Shown here in pieces: positions 1 through 52,826 of a stretch of DNA of 60,906 nt. The notes beneath the pieces are model-generated. The model saw only the letters and a list, made by a program, of their open reading frames with translations. It did no database searches and was not told the DNA's origin. The stretch comes from Lachnospiraceae bacterium. Lineage in GTDB: Bacteria; Bacillota; Clostridia; Lachnospirales; Lachnospiraceae. The first letter of the stretch is position 1; each line of letters starts with the position of its first letter. The stretch is from NCBI GenBank assembly GCA_016284315.1, contig JAEEOO010000024.1:1-60906 (forward strand). Reading direction: 5' to 3'. A program made the translations under genes and the position numbers.

Positions 1-1713
1 GGCTTTAATCCTGTCAGCCTTGTTTTTTTTGCCTTTGACTTTATCCTTTTATGGAGATTTTTTAAGGGAGAGGTTTTATCAAACATAGGCAGGGCTATTG
101 TTTCTGCTGTGATCGGAATTCTTATGGGACTTTCGACGTTTTTGGGAGTACATATTATTTTCGGTAACAATGATATTTTTGACGGAAGCTCAAAGGGGGC
201 TTATCTTATACCGGTTACATTGGGACTGGCGCTTATATTTGTACCGATTATTTCGGAGATGATCGGTTTCTTTGACAGAATAAGTTCTGTTGAGGATTCT
301 TTGGATGTTAAAGCGACAAAGACCGGCAAAGCCATTGGTTACCTGTGTATGATCTGGGGAATAGTGTTTTTGAGCTTTGTTCCGCTATTTCTATATTGGT
401 GGCCGGGTAACTTTATTGGTGATGCAAATGCGCAGGTTGAGGATTGGCTATATGGAGGAATATCTACGCATCATCCCATACTGCATACAGTCCTTTTGGG
501 AAGATTTTATGAGCTTGGATGCAAATTAGGACATCCGAATTACGGTTTTCAGTTTTTCACGATACTACAGATGCTTGTAGTTTCGGGATCCGTAGCTTGC
601 TTTATGAGGTATCTCTATGACAGAAAGGTAAGGAAAAGCATAAGGATCATTACGCTGCTTTGCTTTGTGCTCAACCCTACTTTGTCCTATTATGCTATTT
701 CAACTATTAAGGGAGTGATGTGCGGAGCATTTACTCTTATTGCGGTCACTTTCCTTCTAAGATTCATAGACAGCGGAAAGATCAATAGGCTTATCGGATT
801 TATTGTACCTGCTATCTTGGCATGCTGCTTTAGGAACAACATGGTTTATGCAATGGCTGTGGCAGGAATAGTAATGACTATAGTTTTTGTAGCTAAGAAA
901 AAAGGTCTTAAGACTGTGATCGCTTTCTTTGCAGCAATAGTTTTGATCGTTGCGGGAGCAAAGGTGAGTGAAAAGATCCTGATCAAAGCTACTGATGGTA
1001 AGGTGGTAGATACTCAAAGAGAGAGTATGTCGGTTCCGATCATGTGTCTTGCAAGAGTAGTAAAGTATCATGGAACTGAACTTGAGCCCGCAGTACATGA
1101 CGAAATCTGTCTTTATATTCCTGAATATCTTATAGATAGTTATGCATATTGCCTTTCGGACGGCGTAAAGAATTATGCAAATGAAAATCTTCTCAGGGAC
1201 AACAAGATAAACTTTTTTAAGTTGGTTGCTAAAGTAGGTTTAAAGTATCCCGGGGAATATCTTGAGGCGTTCTCGGGATTAACTTGCGGTTATTGGTACT
1301 TGGGTGATTATCCTTATTATGTGGGAGGTACGACTAAACTCTTTTGTGCGTCTTTCCGTACGGATATTCCGAATATAGAAAACAAGAACCTTTTACCAAT
1401 CGGTGGAAGTATTTTTGATTATCTGTATGATGAAAGGGAAGGAAGGCTTTCAATTCCTTTGCTTGGATGGTTATGGAGAGGCGGACTGTATTTTTGGATA
1501 TATGTATTTGCTTTCTTCTATAGTATCTATGGAAAGAACATTAAATCTTTGGGAGCGGTTAGTTTCCCGTTTATGTATTTGATGAGCTGCCTTTTTGGAC
1601 CGGCACCTTTCTTGAGATACATTGTTATAAATATTATAATGCTACCCACCTTAATATATTTGTTGGCGAATAAAGGAAACGTTACTAAACAGAATAATAA
1701 TGAAGAAACTTAA
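1..1713 (+). CDS. DUF6020-like polytopic membrane protein, 5' truncated
   Basis: The reading frame is open back to base 1, so the true start lies outside the window; a GTG at 109 is only an internal possibility. The visible 570 codons encode many hydrophobic helices, with charged loops and a conserved-looking extracytoplasmic segment (WWPGNFIGDANAQ, then HHPILHT). This pattern resembles DUF6020 membrane proteins, which look like glycosyltransferase-type (GT-C) enzymes of the cell envelope; the function is inferred, not shown. The stop overlaps the dusB start by 14 bases, suggesting translational coupling. Confidence 0.6.
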   Translation, partial: GFNPVSLVFFAFDFILLWRFFKGEVLSNIGRAIVSAVIGILMGLSTFLGVHIIFGNNDIFDGSSKGAYLIPVTLGLALIFVPIISEMIGFFDRISSVEDSLDVKATKTGKAIGYLCMIWGIVFLSFVPLFLYWWPGNFIGDANAQVEDWLYGGISTHHPILHTVLLGRFYELGCKLGHPNYGFQFFTILQMLVVSGSVACFMRYLYDRKVRKSIRIITLLCFVLNPTLSYYAISTIKGVMCGAFTLIAVTFLLRFIDSGKINRLIGFIVPAILACCFRNNMVYAMAVAGIVMTIVFVAKKKGLKTVIAFFAAIVLIVAGAKVSEKILIKATDGKVVDTQRESMSVPIMCLARVVKYHGTELEPAVHDEICLYIPEYLIDSYAYCLSDGVKNYANENLLRDNKINFFKLVAKVGLKYPGEYLEAFSGLTCGYWYLGDYPYYVGGTTKLFCASFRTDIPNIENKNLLPIGGSIFDYLYDEREGRLSIPLLGWLWRGGLYFWIYVFAFFYSIYGKNIKSLGAVSFPFMYLMSCLFGPAPFLRYIVINIIMLPTLIYLLANKGNVTKQNNNEET

Positions 1714-5269: not shown

Positions 5270-6112
5270 ATGGGAATTAAGACATACAATCCCTACACCC
5301 CTTCCCGCAGAAACATGACCGGTTCTGATTTCTCAGAGATCACTAAGAAAACTCCTGAGAAGAGCCTTCTTGTTTCTAAGAAGAAAAATGCCGGACGTAA
5401 CAACCAGGGCAAGATTACCGTTAGACATCAGGGTGGCGGTAACAGACAGAAGTATCGTATCATCGACTTCAAGAGACTTAAAGATGGCATCCCCGCTACC
5501 GTAATCGGTATCGAGTATGACCCTAACAGAACAGCTAACATCGCTCTTATCTGCTATGCAGATGGCGAGAAGGCATATATCATCGCTCCCGAAGGACTTA
5601 CCGATGGCATGAAGGTTATGAATGGACCTGAGGCCGAAGTAAGAGTAGGCAACTGCCTCCCTCTTGAGTGCATTCCTGTTGGTACCATGGTACATAACGT
5701 AGAGCTTTATCCCGGAAAGGGCGCACAGATGGTTCGTTCCGCCGGTAACGGAGCTCAGCTTATGGCTAAGGAAGGCAAGTATGCAACCTTAAGACTCCCT
5801 TCAGGCGAGATGAGAATGGTTCCTCTTAACTGCCGTGCTACCGTTGGTATCGTAGGTAATGTTGATCACAGCCTCGTTAAGATCGGTAAAGCCGGACGTA
5901 AGCGTCACATGGGCATCCGTCCTACTGTTCGTGGTTCTGTTATGAACCCCAACGACCATCCTCATGGAGGTGGTGAAGGTAAGACCGGTATCGGACGTCC
6001 CGGCCCTTCAACTCCTTGGGGCAAGCCTGCTCTTGGTCTCAAGACCAGAAACAAGAAGAAGGCTTCCAACAAGTTGATCGTAAGAAGACGCGACGGCAAG
6101 GCAATCAAGTAA
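5270..6112 (+). CDS. rplB: 50S ribosomal protein L2
   Basis: Core protein near the peptidyl transferase centre, 280 residues. It has the N-terminal [17 protein letters not shown], the OB-fold region, and the C-terminal [20 protein letters not shown] signature containing the conserved histidine. AAAGGAG precedes the ATG. Confidence 0.97.
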
Positions 6113-11396: not shown

Positions 11397-11906
11397 ATGA
11401 AACGTACAATCGTAGATGCAAGCCAGTTGGAATTAGAAGATAAGGTTGTTACTATTAAGAGAGTTACCAAGGTTGTTAAAGGTGGTAGCAATTCTCGTTT
11501 TACCGCACTTGTTGTAGTTGGTGATAAGAATGGTCACGTTGGAGTAGGCCTTGGAAAGGCTAAGGAAGTTCCCGAAGCTATCCGTAAGGGCAAGGAAGAT
11601 GCTATCAAGCACGTTGTTGAGATCGCACTTGATGAGAACAACTCCATCACTCATGATTTCATCGGACAGTATGGTTCATCAAACGTTCTCCTTAAGAGAG
11701 CACCTGAAGGAACCGGTATCATCGCCGGCGGTCCCGCTCGTATCGTTTGTGAACTTGCAGGTATCAAGAACATCCGTACTAAGTCTCTTGGCTCTAACAA
11801 CAAGCAGAACGTTGTTCTTGCAACCCTTACCGGACTTTCTGAGCTTAAGCGCCCTGAAGAGGTAGCTAAGAAGCGTAACAAGTCCGTTGAGGAAGTTCAG
11901 GCATAA
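11397..11906 (+). CDS. rpsE: 30S ribosomal protein S5
   Basis: 169 residues. It has the dsRBD-like N-terminal domain ([20 protein letters not shown]) and the C-terminal [19 protein letters not shown] segment. S5 acts in decoding fidelity and mRNA unwinding at the entry tunnel. Confidence 0.97.
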
Positions 11907-11920
11907 GGAGGAGTAAAGAG

Positions 11921-12106
11921 ATGGCAGATAAAAAGTTAAAAGTTACTCTGACCAAGTCCCTGATCGGTCAGGTTCCTAAGAACAGAGCGATTGCAGAGTC
12001 TATGGGTCTTCGTAAGATCGGTAAGAGCGTTATTCTTCCCGACAACGATGCTACTAAGGGACAGGTTCGTCTGATCAATCACCTTGTTAAGGTTGAAGAA
12101 GTATAA
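11921..12106 (+). CDS. rpmD: 50S ribosomal protein L30
   Basis: 61 residues, the bacterial short form. [17 protein letters not shown] and [15 protein letters not shown] match the family. AAGGAGGAG precedes the ATG. Confidence 0.96.
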
Positions 12107-35119: not shown

Positions 35120-36001
35120 ATGAAGAAAATGACCAAGATTGTTGCTCTTATAGGCGCAGCAGTAATGTGCGCATCTGTTATCGCAGGTTGCGGAAACAAG
35201 ACTGAGGCACCCGCAGCACAGGAACCCCAGGAAAACCAGACTGCAGAAAACGGCGAAACCACCGAGGCTTCCAAGTATGACCTCAGCGGCATCAAGCTTA
35301 TCAGTGACGGCGTACTCAGCGTAGGTGAGGAAGTAGGCTACCCTCCTTTCGAAGATTTCGCAGAGGACGGAGTTACCCCCATTGGATATGATGTTGATAT
35401 CATCACTGAAGTAGCAAAGAGACTTGGACTTGAAGTAAATATCGTAAATACTGCATGGGACGGAATCTTCGCAGGTATCGATAATAACTATGATGTTGTT
35501 TGCTCAGCATGCACCATCACCGAGGAGAGAAAAGAGAGCATGCTCTTCTCAGAGCCTTATATCGCAAACTATCAGGCTGTTATCTTAAAGGCGGGCAACG
35601 ATAAGAAGATCGAGAGCTTCAATGACCTTGACGGAATGACCGTTGCGGTTCAGAAGGAGACCACTTCAGACGAACTCATCAGCGATTACAAGTCAACCGG
35701 AACAATCGATGTAGAGATCGTTGCAAATGAGAAGATCTTAAGCTGCTTTACCCAGCTTGACAACGGAGAGGTTGATGCAGTCGTTGTTGACTCAACTGTA
35801 GCCGACGGTTATCTTGCAAAGAATCCCGATGCTTATGTTTATGCATACAAGGATGATTCAGAGGCTGAGTATTTCGGAATCGCCATCGGCAAGGAGAACA
35901 CTGCACTCAAGGCTGTTATCGATGAGGTCCTTGCAGATATGGAAGCTGACGGATTTATTGCAGACACCTATTCTTATTGGTTCGGTGTAACTGAAGAATA
36001 A
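35120..36001 (+). CDS. Polar amino-acid ABC transporter, substrate-binding lipoprotein
   Basis: 293 residues. Lipoprotein signal with lipobox IAGC (Cys24), a short Glu/Thr/Gln-rich linker, then a SBP family 3 domain (GEEVGYPPFEDF, GYDVDIITEVAKRLGLEV, VCSACTITEERKESMLFSEPYI). The YDVDI aspartate and the R in EERKE-type positions bind the amino group and carboxylate of amino acids in this family. Exact substrate unknown. The Shine-Dalgarno sequence is AGGAGGAA. Confidence 0.93.
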   Translation: MKKMTKIVALIGAAVMCASVIAGCGNKTEAPAAQEPQENQTAENGETTEASKYDLSGIKLISDGVLSVGEEVGYPPFEDFAEDGVTPIGYDVDIITEVAKRLGLEVNIVNTAWDGIFAGIDNNYDVVCSACTITEERKESMLFSEPYIANYQAVILKAGNDKKIESFNDLDGMTVAVQKETTSDELISDYKSTGTIDVEIVANEKILSCFTQLDNGEVDAVVVDSTVADGYLAKNPDAYVYAYKDDSEAEYFGIAIGKENTALKAVIDEVLADMEADGFIADTYSYWFGVTEE

Positions 36002-38798: not shown

Positions 38799-38932
38799 GT
38801 TTGGCACCCGGGGACGGATTTAGGGTTTGGCACCTGGGGACGGGGTTAGGGGGACATTTTCCGGAAACACTTCAAAAGTTCATCCTACTTTGAAAATGTC
38901 CCCCTAACCCCGTCCCCAGGTGCCAACCCCTA
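38799..38932. repeat. REP-like element, copy 1: large inverted repeat plus a direct half-copy
   Basis: Arms of 41 bases at 38821-38861 and 38892-38932 are complementary with a single wobble mismatch, around a 30-base loop. The arm contains TTGGCACCTGGGGACGGGG followed by a GGGGGACATTTTC end. A second, direct, partial copy of the arm (about 22 of 25 bases) lies just before at 38801-38825. It begins right after the EamA stop codon. The motif GGGGACGG recurs at 41254 and 49892. Confidence 0.85.
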
Positions 38933-41253: not shown

Positions 41254-41295
41254 GGGGACGGCGTTTTGGGGAAATGGCCCACTAACCCCGTCCCC
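41254..41295. repeat. REP-like element, copy 2, in the 5' leader
   Basis: GGGGACGG (41254-41261) is complementary to CCGTCCCC (41288-41295). The right arm, read on the minus strand, is close to the copy-1 arm (GGGGACGGGGTTAG, then GGG, CATTT). The left arm is degenerate. It lies between the promoter and the ribosome site of the next gene. Confidence 0.7.
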
Positions 41296-47718: not shown

Positions 47719-48816
47719 ATGAAGAACAATTTCAAAAGATTCTTTTCAAGCGGTCTCGGACAGCTTACCATCCCAATCATTTCTATATGTTTACTGATCA
47801 TATTTAACCTTATAAGGGACCCAAGCTTTTTCAGCATCAGCATTGCACACAACAATGACGGAAACATGGTCCTTGCGGGCAACCTTATCAGTATCATTAA
47901 CGGTGCCAGCGAACTTGCGATCCTTGCCATGGGTATGACACTTGTAACGGCAGCTTGCGGCGGACAGGATATTTCAGTCGGTGCGGCAGCGGCTATTGCA
48001 GGAAGCGTTTTTGTTAAGATAATAAAAATGTGTATGTTCGACTTCAACTCTGATATCAAGGCCGGATATATCATTCTTGCTTTCCTGGCAGCCTGTGTTG
48101 TGGCGATGCTTTTCGGAGCCTTTAACGGAACTCTTGTTGCGGTATTTAAGATTCAGCCCATGATAGCGACGCTGATCCTGTTTACTTGTGGAAGATCCAT
48201 TGCATATTGGATAAACGGCGGTGCAACACCAACGGTTAGCAGCCCTATCATTACCGCTATCGGCGGATTTATTCCCGGAGTTCCCATACCGACTCCGGTC
48301 ATAATTGTTGTGGTCATGGCAGTGCTCTTTAAACTGCTGTTCCACTTCACCTCCCTTGAACTCTTTACCCAGTCGGTGGGAATAAACGGAAATGCCGCAA
48401 GACTTAACGGAATCAATTCAACTTTCATAAAGCTTTTATCATTCATCATCCTGGGAATCTGCGTAGCAGTTGCGGGAACCATCGGTGTCAGCCGTCTCGG
48501 ACTTATTAACCATGAGACGCTCCTTATCGATATCGAAATGGACACCATCCTTGCGGTTGCCATCGGTGGTAACAGCCTTGGCGGAGGAAAGTTCAAGATC
48601 GGCGGAAGTATCCTGGGCGCGTATGTTATCCAGATGCTTACGATTACGCTTTACGCCATGAAGGTTTCTTCAACGGACGTTAAGGCATACAAAGCTGTCG
48701 TTATCATCCTTTTGGTTGTCATCGGATCCCCTGTAGTAAAGAAGTACTTTGGCAGAATGGTTTCAAAGGCCAAAGCTAACAGATCCGAAAAGAAAGCGAA
48801 AGGAGCGGTGGAATAA
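47719..48816 (+). CDS. Sugar ABC transporter permease, YtfT-like
   Basis: 365 residues with about nine membrane helices. ELAILAMGMTLVTAACGGQDISVGA and LAVAIGGNSLGGGKFKIGG-like segments are signatures of the RbsC/YtfT permease family. It overlaps the second permease by one base. The order SBP-ATPase-permease-permease matches ytfQ-ytfR-ytfT-yjfF, so a furanose substrate is possible. Confidence 0.92.
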   Translation: MKNNFKRFFSSGLGQLTIPIISICLLIIFNLIRDPSFFSISIAHNNDGNMVLAGNLISIINGASELAILAMGMTLVTAACGGQDISVGAAAAIAGSVFVKIIKMCMFDFNSDIKAGYIILAFLAACVVAMLFGAFNGTLVAVFKIQPMIATLILFTCGRSIAYWINGGATPTVSSPIITAIGGFIPGVPIPTPVIIVVVMAVLFKLLFHFTSLELFTQSVGINGNAARLNGINSTFIKLLSFIILGICVAVAGTIGVSRLGLINHETLLIDIEMDTILAVAIGGNSLGGGKFKIGGSILGAYVIQMLTITLYAMKVSSTDVKAYKAVVIILLVVIGSPVVKKYFGRMVSKAKANRSEKKAKGAVE

Positions 48817-49844
48817 TGAGTAAAGCAAAGTTAAAAGTAAGAGAGCCGCTCACAGATACACAGCTTTTGATGACCATTACCATCTGTATTTTTATTGTGA
48901 TGTATGGTCTTGCAATGCTCATTTTCGGAGGCGGATTTTTAAGGACTCAGCAGATTTTTGATATTTTGAACGATAATGCCAGCCTTATCATCGTATCCTG
49001 CGGACTAACCATTGTCATGATAGGTGGAGGTATTGACATCAGCGTTGGTGCGGTAACTTCCCTTGTTGTAATGAGCTGCGTAATGTTCTATAACAGGACA
49101 GGAAACATGGTCCTGGCAGCGTTACTTGCCATCGGTATCGGACTTGCCTTTGGACTTATCCAAGGAGCACTTATCAGTTTTCTTGATATTCAGCCCTTTA
49201 TCGTTACTCTGGCAGGTATGTTCTTTGCAAGAGGAATGACCACGATCCTTTCGGTTAATCCTCAAAAATTGCCCACGGAAACTATGGATAAGCTGGCAGG
49301 AATTAAGATTGAGATCCCTTGGCTTGGATATGTTGCCAATAACGGAAATGTTATTCCTGCCAGAATGGAAATTGGAGTTGTGGTAGCGCTCCTTGTTGTA
49401 ATTGCCGTTTTTGTGCTTCTTCAGTTTGGAAGCCTTGGCCGTAACTTCTACGCCATCGGCGGAAACCAGACCAGCGCACTGATGCTTGGTATCAATGTCA
49501 AGAAGACCCGCTTTATGAGCTATGTTATATGCGGACTTTTAAGCGGTATCTCCGGATTTGTCTTCATGATGCATACAGGCGCAGGAAATGCAACCAATGC
49601 TGCGGGAATGGAAATGAACGCCATTGCATCATCCATTATCGGTGGAACCCTTCTTACAGGTGGTGTCGGTAACGTCATCGGTACATTTTTCGGAACCCTG
49701 ACACTTAAGACCATCAGTAAGATCGTTGTTACCAGCGGACTTAACGATCCCTGGTGGCAGAGTATTACCACCGGTGGAATGCTTTGTTTCTTCATCCTTT
49801 TACAGAGTATCGTACTTGGCAGAAGAGCCAAGAAAAAGAAATAG
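48816..49844 (+). CDS. Sugar ABC transporter permease, YjfF-like
   Basis: 342 residues, the second permease. NDNASLIIVSCGLTIVMIGGGIDISVGAVT and SSIIGGTLLTGGVGNVIGT regions are typical, read in short pieces. Together with the upstream permease it gives a heterodimeric channel. Confidence 0.92.
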   Translation: MSKAKLKVREPLTDTQLLMTITICIFIVMYGLAMLIFGGGFLRTQQIFDILNDNASLIIVSCGLTIVMIGGGIDISVGAVTSLVVMSCVMFYNRTGNMVLAALLAIGIGLAFGLIQGALISFLDIQPFIVTLAGMFFARGMTTILSVNPQKLPTETMDKLAGIKIEIPWLGYVANNGNVIPARMEIGVVVALLVVIAVFVLLQFGSLGRNFYAIGGNQTSALMLGINVKKTRFMSYVICGLLSGISGFVFMMHTGAGNATNAAGMEMNAIASSIIGGTLLTGGVGNVIGTFFGTLTLKTISKIVVTSGLNDPWWQSITTGGMLCFFILLQSIVLGRRAKKKK

Positions 49845-49891: not shown

Positions 49892-49916
49892 GGGGACGGA
49901 GTTAAGGGGTCATTTT
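49892..49916. repeat. REP-like element, copy 3, half unit
   Basis: GGGGACGGAGTTAAGGGG followed by TCATTTT matches the arm of copy 1 (GGGGACGGGGTTAGGGGG, ACATTTT) at about 22 of 25 bases. Only one arm is present, and its end forms the stop codon region of the leftward GGDEF gene. Confidence 0.65.
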
Positions 49917-50622
49917 ACACATCATACTTCTTCAGCAGCATGTCCAAAGCCTCACGGAGGAGGAAGGCTTCCCCGATGCCTTCCCTGGTGGCGAGTTTGG
50001 AGAGGCGCTGGAGCTGGTCCTGGGTGTAGTGGCTGGTCTTGGGGATCATCTTTTCCTCGCGAGCCATTGCAACTTTGTTCCTGCCGCCAACCTTAGCGCG
50101 ATAGAGTGCACCATCTGCTTTTCTGATAAGCTCTGCACATCTTGACGCGTCCACGAATGCCGTTGCCATGCCAATGGTTAATGTGGTCTTTCTTCCGTCG
50201 GGCACCTTGACGGAGAAATTGTTCTTGAGATCGTTCAGTAAGAGGAAGATGTCCTCTCTTTCTGTTAACCCCTTAAAGATAACTCCAAATTCATCACCGC
50301 CGATGCGATAGAGCATTGCATCCTTGGGAAGGTTTTCCTTAAGGTATTTTCCTGTGTCGATCAAAACTCTGTCGCCTACTTCGCTTCCGAATTCATCGTT
50401 GATGGATTTAAATTCATCGAAATCCACGAGGGCGATAACAACGGTCTCCCCTTTTTCTTCCGAATCCCCTTCAAGGATCTCTGTCAGATCATCATCAAAC
50501 TGATTTCCAACAGGAAACTTAAGAGCTTCGTTAACAGGATTGGGCTTGTTCCTGCCAACATTCTTGTGCTCGTCTACAGTGATGGGACGAGCTTCTTCAT
50601 TAGTAACTTTTGCTTTTGCCAT
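49915..50622 (-). CDS. Diguanylate cyclase with C-terminal ribbon-helix-helix-like domain
   Basis: 235 residues from the ATG at 50622, preceded by GGGAGG. Residues 1-58 are a hydrophilic lead. The GGDEF domain (about 60-190) is intact: VDFDEFKSINDEFG and GGDEF at 108-112, with no RxxD inhibitory site, so c-di-GMP synthesis is expected. Residues about 197-234 (SHYTQDQLQRLSKLATREG, then LLREALDMLLKKY) have the strand-helix-helix pattern of CopG/RHH DNA-binding proteins. No membrane or sensor domain is present. Palindromes flank its promoter, so autoregulation is possible. Confidence 0.85.
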   Translation of the reverse strand: MAKAKVTNEEARPITVDEHKNVGRNKPNPVNEALKFPVGNQFDDDLTEILEGDSEEKGETVVIALVDFDEFKSINDEFGSEVGDRVLIDTGKYLKENLPKDAMLYRIGGDEFGVIFKGLTEREDIFLLLNDLKNNFSVKVPDGRKTTLTIGMATAFVDASRCAELIRKADGALYRAKVGGRNKVAMAREEKMIPKTSHYTQDQLQRLSKLATREGIGEAFLLREALDMLLKKYDV

Positions 50623-50657
50623 GATAATACCTCCCAAAACATAGCTAATATATTGAT

Positions 50658-50744
50658 GATATTATTTTGCAGATAATATCTGGTTACACTTATCTTATAA
50701 CATTATAATGATTATATGTCAACATATTATTTCGAAAATAATAT
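50658..50744. promoter_or_regulatory. Promoter and palindromes of the GGDEF-RHH gene
   Basis: On the minus strand TTGACA (50722-50717) and TATAAG (50699-50694) with a 17-base spacer form a good promoter. ATATTATTT-CGA-AAATAATAT (50724-50744) abuts the -35 box and GATATTAT-N7-ATAATATC (50658-50680) lies downstream of the -10 box, while the perfect palindrome CATTATAATG (50701-50710) is in the spacer. Confidence 0.65.
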
Positions 50745-50857
50745 CAAAGACAAGCAGGTAAATTGTGGGAAGTGGTCTTAATACCCGTTGGTTTATTGTA
50801 TAATTAGGTGGTTGGATGGTTTTGTCCACCGGTGGACAATTTTTGTGGGGAGTTTTT

Positions 50858-52206: not shown

Positions 52207-52554
52207 ATGTTTTCGGTGGATTTCTATCGGACAGAAGACGGAAAAGTGCCTGTAGAGGAATTCTTGGACGACCTAAATATTAAGATGAGAAACAAGGCTT
52301 TGGATAGTTTGTCAATCTTAGAAGAATTTGGGAATCAATTGAGAGAACCTTTTTCAAAATCAATGGGTAATGGTTTATATGAACTAAGAATTAAGTTTTC
52401 AGGAGATATTGTTAGGATTTTCTATTTTTTTATGATTGGAAACAGGATAATACTAACAAATGGATTTGTTAAAAAGGACAGAAAGACTCCCAAATTGGAA
52501 TTGGATAAAGCTAAGAAATATAAGGCTGATTTTGAAAGGAGGTTTCTTGTATGA
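52207..52554 (+). CDS. HigB/RelE-superfamily toxin (phage Gp49-like)
   Basis: 115 residues. MFSVDFYRTEDGKVPVEEFL, GNGLYELRIKFSGDIVRIFY and LTNGFVKKDRKTPKLELDKA are the hallmarks of Gp49/HigB-like toxins, which cut mRNA on the ribosome. The gene is AT-rich compared with its surroundings. It overlaps the antitoxin by four bases in toxin-first order, as in higBA. Confidence 0.88.
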   Translation: MFSVDFYRTEDGKVPVEEFLDDLNIKMRNKALDSLSILEEFGNQLREPFSKSMGNGLYELRIKFSGDIVRIFYFFMIGNRIILTNGFVKKDRKTPKLELDKAKKYKADFERRFLV

Positions 52555-52826
52555 GTGATTTAAAAAAATATAAAGAAAAACAACTTCAAGATCCTGAGTT
52601 TAAAAAAGAATATGATGCAACAAGAAATGAATATAGTGTTACCAGAGCTTTAGTAGCTGCGAGGATTATGGCAAATATGACGCAGAAGGAATTGGCTGAG
52701 AAAAGTGGAATCCGTCAATCAAATATCAGTCGTATAGAAAACGGGACTTGTAGTCCTACAATAGCGACATTACAGGCTCTTGCTAAGGGCCTGGGTATGG
52801 AACTTAGAGTTGGTTTTAAACGTTAA
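52551..52826 (+). CDS. HigA-type XRE antitoxin
   Basis: 91 residues. An N-terminal helix region, then a helix-turn-helix at about 34-88 (RIMANMTQKELAEKSGIRQS, NISRIENGTCSPTIATLQAL). It neutralises the toxin encoded just upstream and represses the operon. The overlap ATGA couples it to the toxin. Confidence 0.9.
   Translation: MSDLKKYKEKQLQDPEFKKEYDATRNEYSVTRALVAARIMANMTQKELAEKSGIRQSNISRIENGTCSPTIATLQALAKGLGMELRVGFKR

Follow-up and report, generated by a model that had tools for sequence, protein, structure and literature searches.

The question raised by this locus, which lies in a 60,906-nt stretch of Lachnospiraceae DNA (the whole of it called the window here), is what a gene for a putative diguanylate cyclase does with a C-terminal tail that resembles a ribbon-helix-helix (RHH) DNA-binding domain, when related palindromes lie around its promoter. 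The original prediction was that an intact cyclase ends in an RHH-type tail and may directly repress or activate its own gene. Our reading, which we consider very probable, is that the protein combines two roles, that of a putative diguanylate cyclase in which no sensor domain is recognised and that of a sequence-specific DNA-binding self-repressor at its own promoter; DNA binding, repression and enzymatic activity are all properties that we infer. The features of the coding region are as follows.

49915–50622, minus strand: GGDEF-RHH gene, 235 aa, stop included in the coordinates.
50630–50635, minus strand: Shine-Dalgarno sequence GGGAGG, preceding the ATG at 50622.
50074–50502, minus strand: GGDEF domain, residues 41–183, with the GGDEF motif at residues 108–112.
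49924–50046, minus strand: RHH tail, as predicted, residues 193–233, with the expected ribbon IPKTSHYT at residues 193–200.

The program-listed open reading frame of this gene starts at a TTG five codons before the ATG at 50622, and the next gene downstream (48816–49844) is convergent. Pfam assigned the protein to the GGDEF and RHH families only, plus two sub-threshold matches, and recognised no sensor domain in it. The GGDEF domain matched its family at 3e-27 and was confidently modelled by AlphaFold2 from a 30-row alignment (the window protein, the relatives L022 and L144, and 27 of 79 generic GGDEF loci), with DgcB as the best Foldseek match (E 3e-13). Residues D67, N75, D84 and K177 are all present, are invariant in the 30-row alignment and are kept in all 21 members of the clade of relatives described below; R181 is also present and is kept in 18 of the 21. 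By equivalence with PleD, we take these five residues to be metal, guanine and phosphate ligands. The GGDEF motif is found in the window protein and in 20/21 clade members, L131 having SGDEF. The RxxD product-inhibition site, which is common in diguanylate cyclases but not required, occurs in none of the 21, PKDA standing at its would-be place in the window protein, and the histidine of the GH-xx-GD motif (at least 90% His in the 30-row alignment) is a serine. Profile, signature motif and ligand residues place the protein among the GGDEF diguanylate cyclases, with the RxxD site lacking, and we regard it as a putative diguanylate cyclase with predicted activity. By our own residue matching, it has Asp at the presumed selectivity position, at which Hypr (cGAMP-type) enzymes have Ser according to the selectivity rule in the excerpt of PMC6456294 used here, and this points to c-di-GMP rather than cGAMP as the likely product.

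The tail gave a match to RHH_3 both in the context of the whole protein (residues 200–233, 9.6e-6, 25.9 bits against a curated Pfam cut-off of 21.6) and when searched alone (9.1e-7, 29.2 bits), and the profile was matched by 10 of 10 diverse tails at E values up to 0.01. Together with the GGDEF match, these results bear out the claim of an intact cyclase ending in an RHH-type tail. A second family, Antitox_RHH, reached 16.7 bits in the window protein, under its Pfam cut-off of 27.2. In the single-chain AlphaFold2 model from the 30-row alignment, helices were placed at residues 201–214 and 218–233, and residues 192–198, within the expected ribbon, had a pLDDT below 50 and no modelled strand. 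Modelling the tail by itself (3 rows, mean pLDDT 76) also gave two helices and no strand, Foldseek returned no match for the 50-residue tail model, and the sole solved relative found by tail sequence belonged to the CopG family, with a weak E value of 0.099. Since no ribbon strand was modelled in a single chain and the tail had no Foldseek match, the RHH assignment rests on sequence profiles, which support it.

A tail of this kind could mainly be a dimerisation handle for the cyclase, with the palindromes serving as the operator of a separate regulator. It is established that RHH domains dimerise and that GGDEF enzymes need dimers, and among the solved matches was a GCN4-zipper fusion to the GGDEF domain of WspR (3i5c). 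The tail is the best-conserved part of the protein in the clade, at a mean pairwise identity of 84–87% versus 64% for the GGDEF domain and 46% for the N-terminus. The ribbon residues are nearly invariant in the clade, which argues against a mere handle. The second half of this explanation, the separate regulator, is taken up below with the distribution of the palindrome.

The promoter features are as follows.

50717–50722, minus strand: -35 box TTGACA, separated by a 17-bp spacer from the -10 box.
50694–50699, minus strand: -10 box TATAAG.
50723–50745, no strand: palindrome O1, directly upstream of the -35 box and 65 bp from O2.
50658–50680, no strand: palindrome O2, whose 21-bp core begins 14 bp after the -10 box.

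The core of O1, ATATTATTT-CGA-AAATAATAT (50724–50744), lies one base off the -35 box, and O2 reads GATATTAT-N7-ATAATATC over 50658–50680; its core would lie at about +9 to +29, judging from the likely start site. The two are near-identical 23-bp copies of one motif, either pattern finding the other, and the promoter lies between them. Thus, the claim of related palindromes around the gene's own promoter was confirmed in a sharper form, with two copies of a single motif flanking TTGACA-N17-TATAAG. Up to three mismatches, the O1 pattern has two matches in the 60.9 kb window, both here, against 0.06 expected, and none of 100 shuffles reached two; the O2 pattern taken alone is less exceptional, since 5 of 100 shuffles did so. 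Throughout the organism's own genome (2.25 Mb, 81% complete), the O1 pattern at two or fewer mismatches matched only at the places of O1 and O2, and a looser version with four free central bases found two further places at two mismatches.

The palindrome played no part in finding relatives of the gene, which were picked by protein or tail profile from genome samples that overlap. Within the genus, 10 of 31 genomes, its own included, carry a near-full-length orthologue, the other nine being 64–78% identical. The tail profile found GGDEF-RHH genes in 8/397 genomes of the family (one divergent), 7/392 of an order sample (three divergent) and 5/398 of a phylum sample (three divergent, and another a weak hit within a frame of 86 residues), the organism's own genome being counted in each of the three, as well as in 3/8 and 10/154 genomes of two more distant groups, which overlap and in which some matches are weak or incomplete; a second genus had such genes in 4/79 genomes. 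In a contig scan that mostly picked up generic GGDEF peptides, one of the 80 loci kept, L022, was an orthologue. A plasmid search matched 2981 records, and among the 10 listed identity was below 60% and some alignments extended to query residue 232. Six matches came from a collection of viral contigs: L144 is a GGDEF-RHH gene, L145, L146 and L149 look like unrelated short frames, and L147 and L148 cover the same 24 residues. The L144 gene (4344–4988) has as its neighbour a 1205-aa frame that matches CotH, and the gene's presence in this collection suggests mobility, the viral origin of the contig being putative. In a tree, the 21 operator-bearing proteins formed one side of a branch with 100/99 support; L143, L150, L151, L156 and L157, some of them weak or incomplete, and L185, found later, were left out of the tree and of the residue table. 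The independent cases number fewer than 22, because L019 is a near-duplicate of L020, and L130 has its paralogue L133 in the same genome.

All 21 clade members have the palindrome at two or fewer mismatches of 18 within 250 nt upstream, and in each of them none of 300 dinucleotide shuffles of these 250 nt gave one as good; L185, the clade member fetched later, has a perfect palindrome at -46. The original prediction had staked itself on the palindromes recurring upstream of orthologues, and that is what was found, mostly at a fixed distance from the promoter. The 30 sites of the clade gave the consensus gATATTATTTcngAAATAATATc. With promoters assigned by a scoring script that favours TTGAC, a site starts 13–14 bp after the -10 box in 18 of the 21 and 10 bp after it in L130, so that 19/21 have a site downstream of -10; the only site of L131 and L144 encloses the -35 box, and L133 has both a -35-enclosing and a downstream site. 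In 6/21 (the window and five relatives) another site lies upstream of the -35 box, its near end about 1 to 15 bp away from it, and two clade members have a weak second site between -35 and -10. Between the downstream site and the ATG there are 47 to 107 nt, a distance that is not conserved. The spacings of the paired palindromes in L016, L017, L126, L127, L130, L015 and the window (38–39, 65–66 and 77–78 bp) are close to multiples of 13, that of L133 being 48, and may reflect either chance or cooperative arrays.

The motif is largely confined to this gene. A site at one or no mismatch is present at the gene in 10/10 gene-bearing genomes of the genus, whereas any such site occurs in 1/21 gene-less genomes, a count in which gene absence is uncertain since the genomes are often incomplete; 13 of the 14 sites of this quality in the genus sit at the gene, and the ten gene-bearing genomes contain no off-gene site at this threshold. 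The 397 family genomes hold at least 55 such sites, in 45 genomes, of which 11 are at the gene among the matches listed, which include five of the six in G096; these 11 are in 6 of the 7 clade genomes of the sample, the own site of the seventh (G093) having two mismatches. A reversed control pattern gave about 30 sites in the same genomes by our sum, and we read the off-gene sites as background, though somewhat above the control. Perfect sites in these genomes were at the gene in four of five cases among the matches listed, the fifth (in G237) lying between unrelated genes. Of the 17 other GGDEF matches in the organism's own genome, seven had their loci searched and showed no site, and 79 generic GGDEF loci (475,922 bp) contained one. 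A chance AT-rich palindrome was rejected as an explanation on the 0.06 matches expected in the window, the co-occurrence with the gene, the upstream shuffles and the near-empty generic GGDEF loci. A regulon beyond the gene itself found no support, with off-gene sites at or somewhat above background, and the presumed repressor probably has one target, as judged from these site counts. If the regulator were a foreign one, sites should also turn up elsewhere or where no GGDEF-RHH gene is present; instead, the palindrome occurs, at one or no mismatch, with the gene and almost nowhere else in the genus, and it follows the gene into other genera, mostly in unlike neighbourhoods. A dimerisation handle combined with a separate regulator is thus improbable, and a protein acting on its own operator remains the preferred reading.

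For 20 loci, these neighbourhoods were compared on the basis of reading frames at least 80 codons long. Most of the 20 differ, so the palindrome seems to move together with the gene; at this ORF length, no neighbour family was found to recur in all of them. Some contexts are nevertheless related, since L158 shares neighbours with L159, and L164 with L165 and L166, ABC-transporter genes are near the gene in three loci of two genera (L158, L159 and, from the other genus, L173), and a few single neighbour families recur in two loci. Members from other genera nest among those of the genus in the tree, which suggests that the gene was transferred together with its operator. A type II antitoxin with an RHH domain was considered and rejected, as no partner gene is common to the 20 loci at this ORF length. 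At L173 (3198–5975), the ABC-transporter genes lie after the GGDEF-RHH gene in the same orientation and may share its transcript. L171 (genome G096) has two paralogous GGDEF-RHH genes, at 5439–6089 and 11401–12051, about 6 kb apart and each with its own palindrome pair. Two further features of the window were recorded. GGGGACGGAGTT elements, at 49892–49903 and also at 35363, 38810–38917 and 41254–41295, number seven at up to one mismatch versus 0.2 expected; they flank the gene in inverted orientation in the close relatives L019, L020 and L022, and look like a dispersed repeat family. At 52207–52826 on the plus strand, a gene for a Gp49-like protein is followed by one for a helix-turn-helix protein, a pair that we take to be a likely HigBA-type toxin-antitoxin.

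A palindrome downstream of a promoter could also work in RNA, with O2 forming a hairpin in the 5' leader that controls stability or translation. O2 does lie inside the presumed leader and its 30-nt segment folds with a z of -5.9, but in the 69-nt leader the best fold excludes the hairpin (z -0.7), and the motif is also found outside the transcript, upstream of -35 in six members and over -35 in three. Moreover, 23 arm pairs deviate from the consensus, of which none is Watson-Crick compensated and three are G-U, so that it is the sequence that is kept and not the pairing. There was no Rfam match at gathering score, and none of six weak ones was a c-di-GMP riboswitch. On the grounds of position, uncompensated arms and the Rfam result, an RNA hairpin or riboswitch was rejected as the main reading, and we regard it as extremely unlikely.

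The position of the sites also bears on the direction of control by a DNA-bound protein. The protein might activate its own promoter in a positive loop of the kind reported for PdeL, which activates its own gene (PMC5052742, in excerpt), and the window together with five relatives does have a site ahead of the -35 box, a possible activator position. However, only these 6/21 have such a site, 19/21 have one downstream of -10, and the other two members have a site over -35 only; we therefore consider activation very unlikely. Repression is preferred because of where the sites lie, so that the original 'repress or activate' is supported as self-regulation and narrows, by site position, to presumed repression.

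Beyond the clade are 11 divergent members, in which the signature is GGDEF in one and SGDEF or AGDEF in three; a wider signature, as given in the excerpt of PMC6456294, would still count SGDEF and AGDEF as active. The other seven fall outside this wider signature (GGDAF, SRDEF, GADNF, SGDQF, AADEF, GPDEV and GRDAF). The tails of the divergent members tested still match RHH_3. Six of them (L132 and L138–L142) were scanned for the palindrome, L137 and L152–L155 being left out, and none had a site at two or fewer mismatches, the best being three in L138, as would be expected if their specificity differs. L132 and L142, whose ribbons read K-S-x-Y-F/Y, have other AT-rich palindromes upstream when inspected by eye, ACATATATATGT twice in L132 and CATATATG twice in L142, which may be the own operators of these members. 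At L137 (982–2130) a further C-terminal receiver is present (Pfam GGDEF 5e-31, RHH_3 1.4e-4, Response_reg 3.3e-29), so that the DNA-binding domain sits between the cyclase-like and receiver domains.

Several known systems resemble parts of this arrangement. The trifunctional proline utilisation A protein, PutA, likewise joins a metabolic enzyme to an RHH domain, which mediates dimerisation, and is an autogenous repressor (PMC5293562, in excerpt). Its RHH domain is N-terminal, its enzyme is unrelated, its target for repression is the put regulon and it can move to the membrane, whereas the window protein has a C-terminal RHH on a GGDEF domain, one target as far as seen, and no Pfam match to the proline dehydrogenase or P5C dehydrogenase domains. 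PdeL, the trigger phosphodiesterase of E. coli, combines a c-di-GMP enzyme with a DNA-binding domain that recognises an imperfect palindrome in the promoter of its own gene (PMC5052742, in excerpt), but it is an EAL phosphodiesterase with a LuxR-type HTH and autoactivation, and the window protein a GGDEF protein with an RHH domain and presumed autorepression. CdbA of Myxococcus xanthus is an RHH protein in c-di-GMP signalling, in which binding of DNA and of c-di-GMP are mutually exclusive; unlike the window protein, it is small and binds chromosome-wide at more than 500 sites (statements from part of PMC7156744). PucR-type regulators such as MabR also carry a GGDEF fold and a DNA-binding domain in one regulator, but with an HTH instead of an RHH and a GGDEF-like domain (PF17853) described, in the portion of PMC11617747 used, as having no catalytic or inhibitory motifs; the window protein has no Pfam match to PF17853 or PF13556 at E values up to 1. 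No account of a GGDEF-RHH protein was found in the open-licence literature among the matches listed, as judged on titles and abstract openings. The original statement that there is no named system of this kind holds for the GGDEF-RHH pair in the literature covered but not for the principle; since PutA and PdeL show that the principle exists, the locus is best described as a variant of it.

How self-repression would work can be outlined. The RHH tail would form a dimer, and probably a pair of dimers would occupy the palindrome gATATTATTTcngAAATAATATc, as a pair of RHH dimers does on the operator of Arc. With the palindrome occupied, at roughly +9 to +29 or, in some relatives, over -35, RNA polymerase would be blocked, and repression would hold the enzyme at a self-limited level; with a single target, what the circuit controls would be how much of the protein is made. 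A dimer formed through the tail would, in addition, bring two GGDEF domains together, as catalysis needs, so that one tail may set both activity and amount. By analogy with CdbA, as far as the excerpt of that study goes, a repressor released by its product is plausible. A bolder version, which we hold tentatively and think rather unlikely, is a self-contained one-gene switch: the tail represses its own gene, c-di-GMP, by analogy with CdbA, or else GTP weakens the hold of the tail on the operator, and synthesis releases more enzyme. On this view the clade represents a c-di-GMP module that consists of one gene and can be transferred, and the wider family, which retains the tail but has often lost the intact GGDEF motif, would show a cyclase on its way to a nucleotide-sensing transcription factor.

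Because the operator is defined to the base, seemingly single-target and mostly at a fixed distance from the promoter, the circuit can be tested with one protein and one DNA fragment. If the reading is true, a diguanylate cyclase of rumen and gut Lachnospiraceae would directly control its own gene through a fused DNA-binding domain, a synthesising counterpart to PdeL, and the wider family could be used to trace a possible path from second-messenger enzyme to transcription factor.
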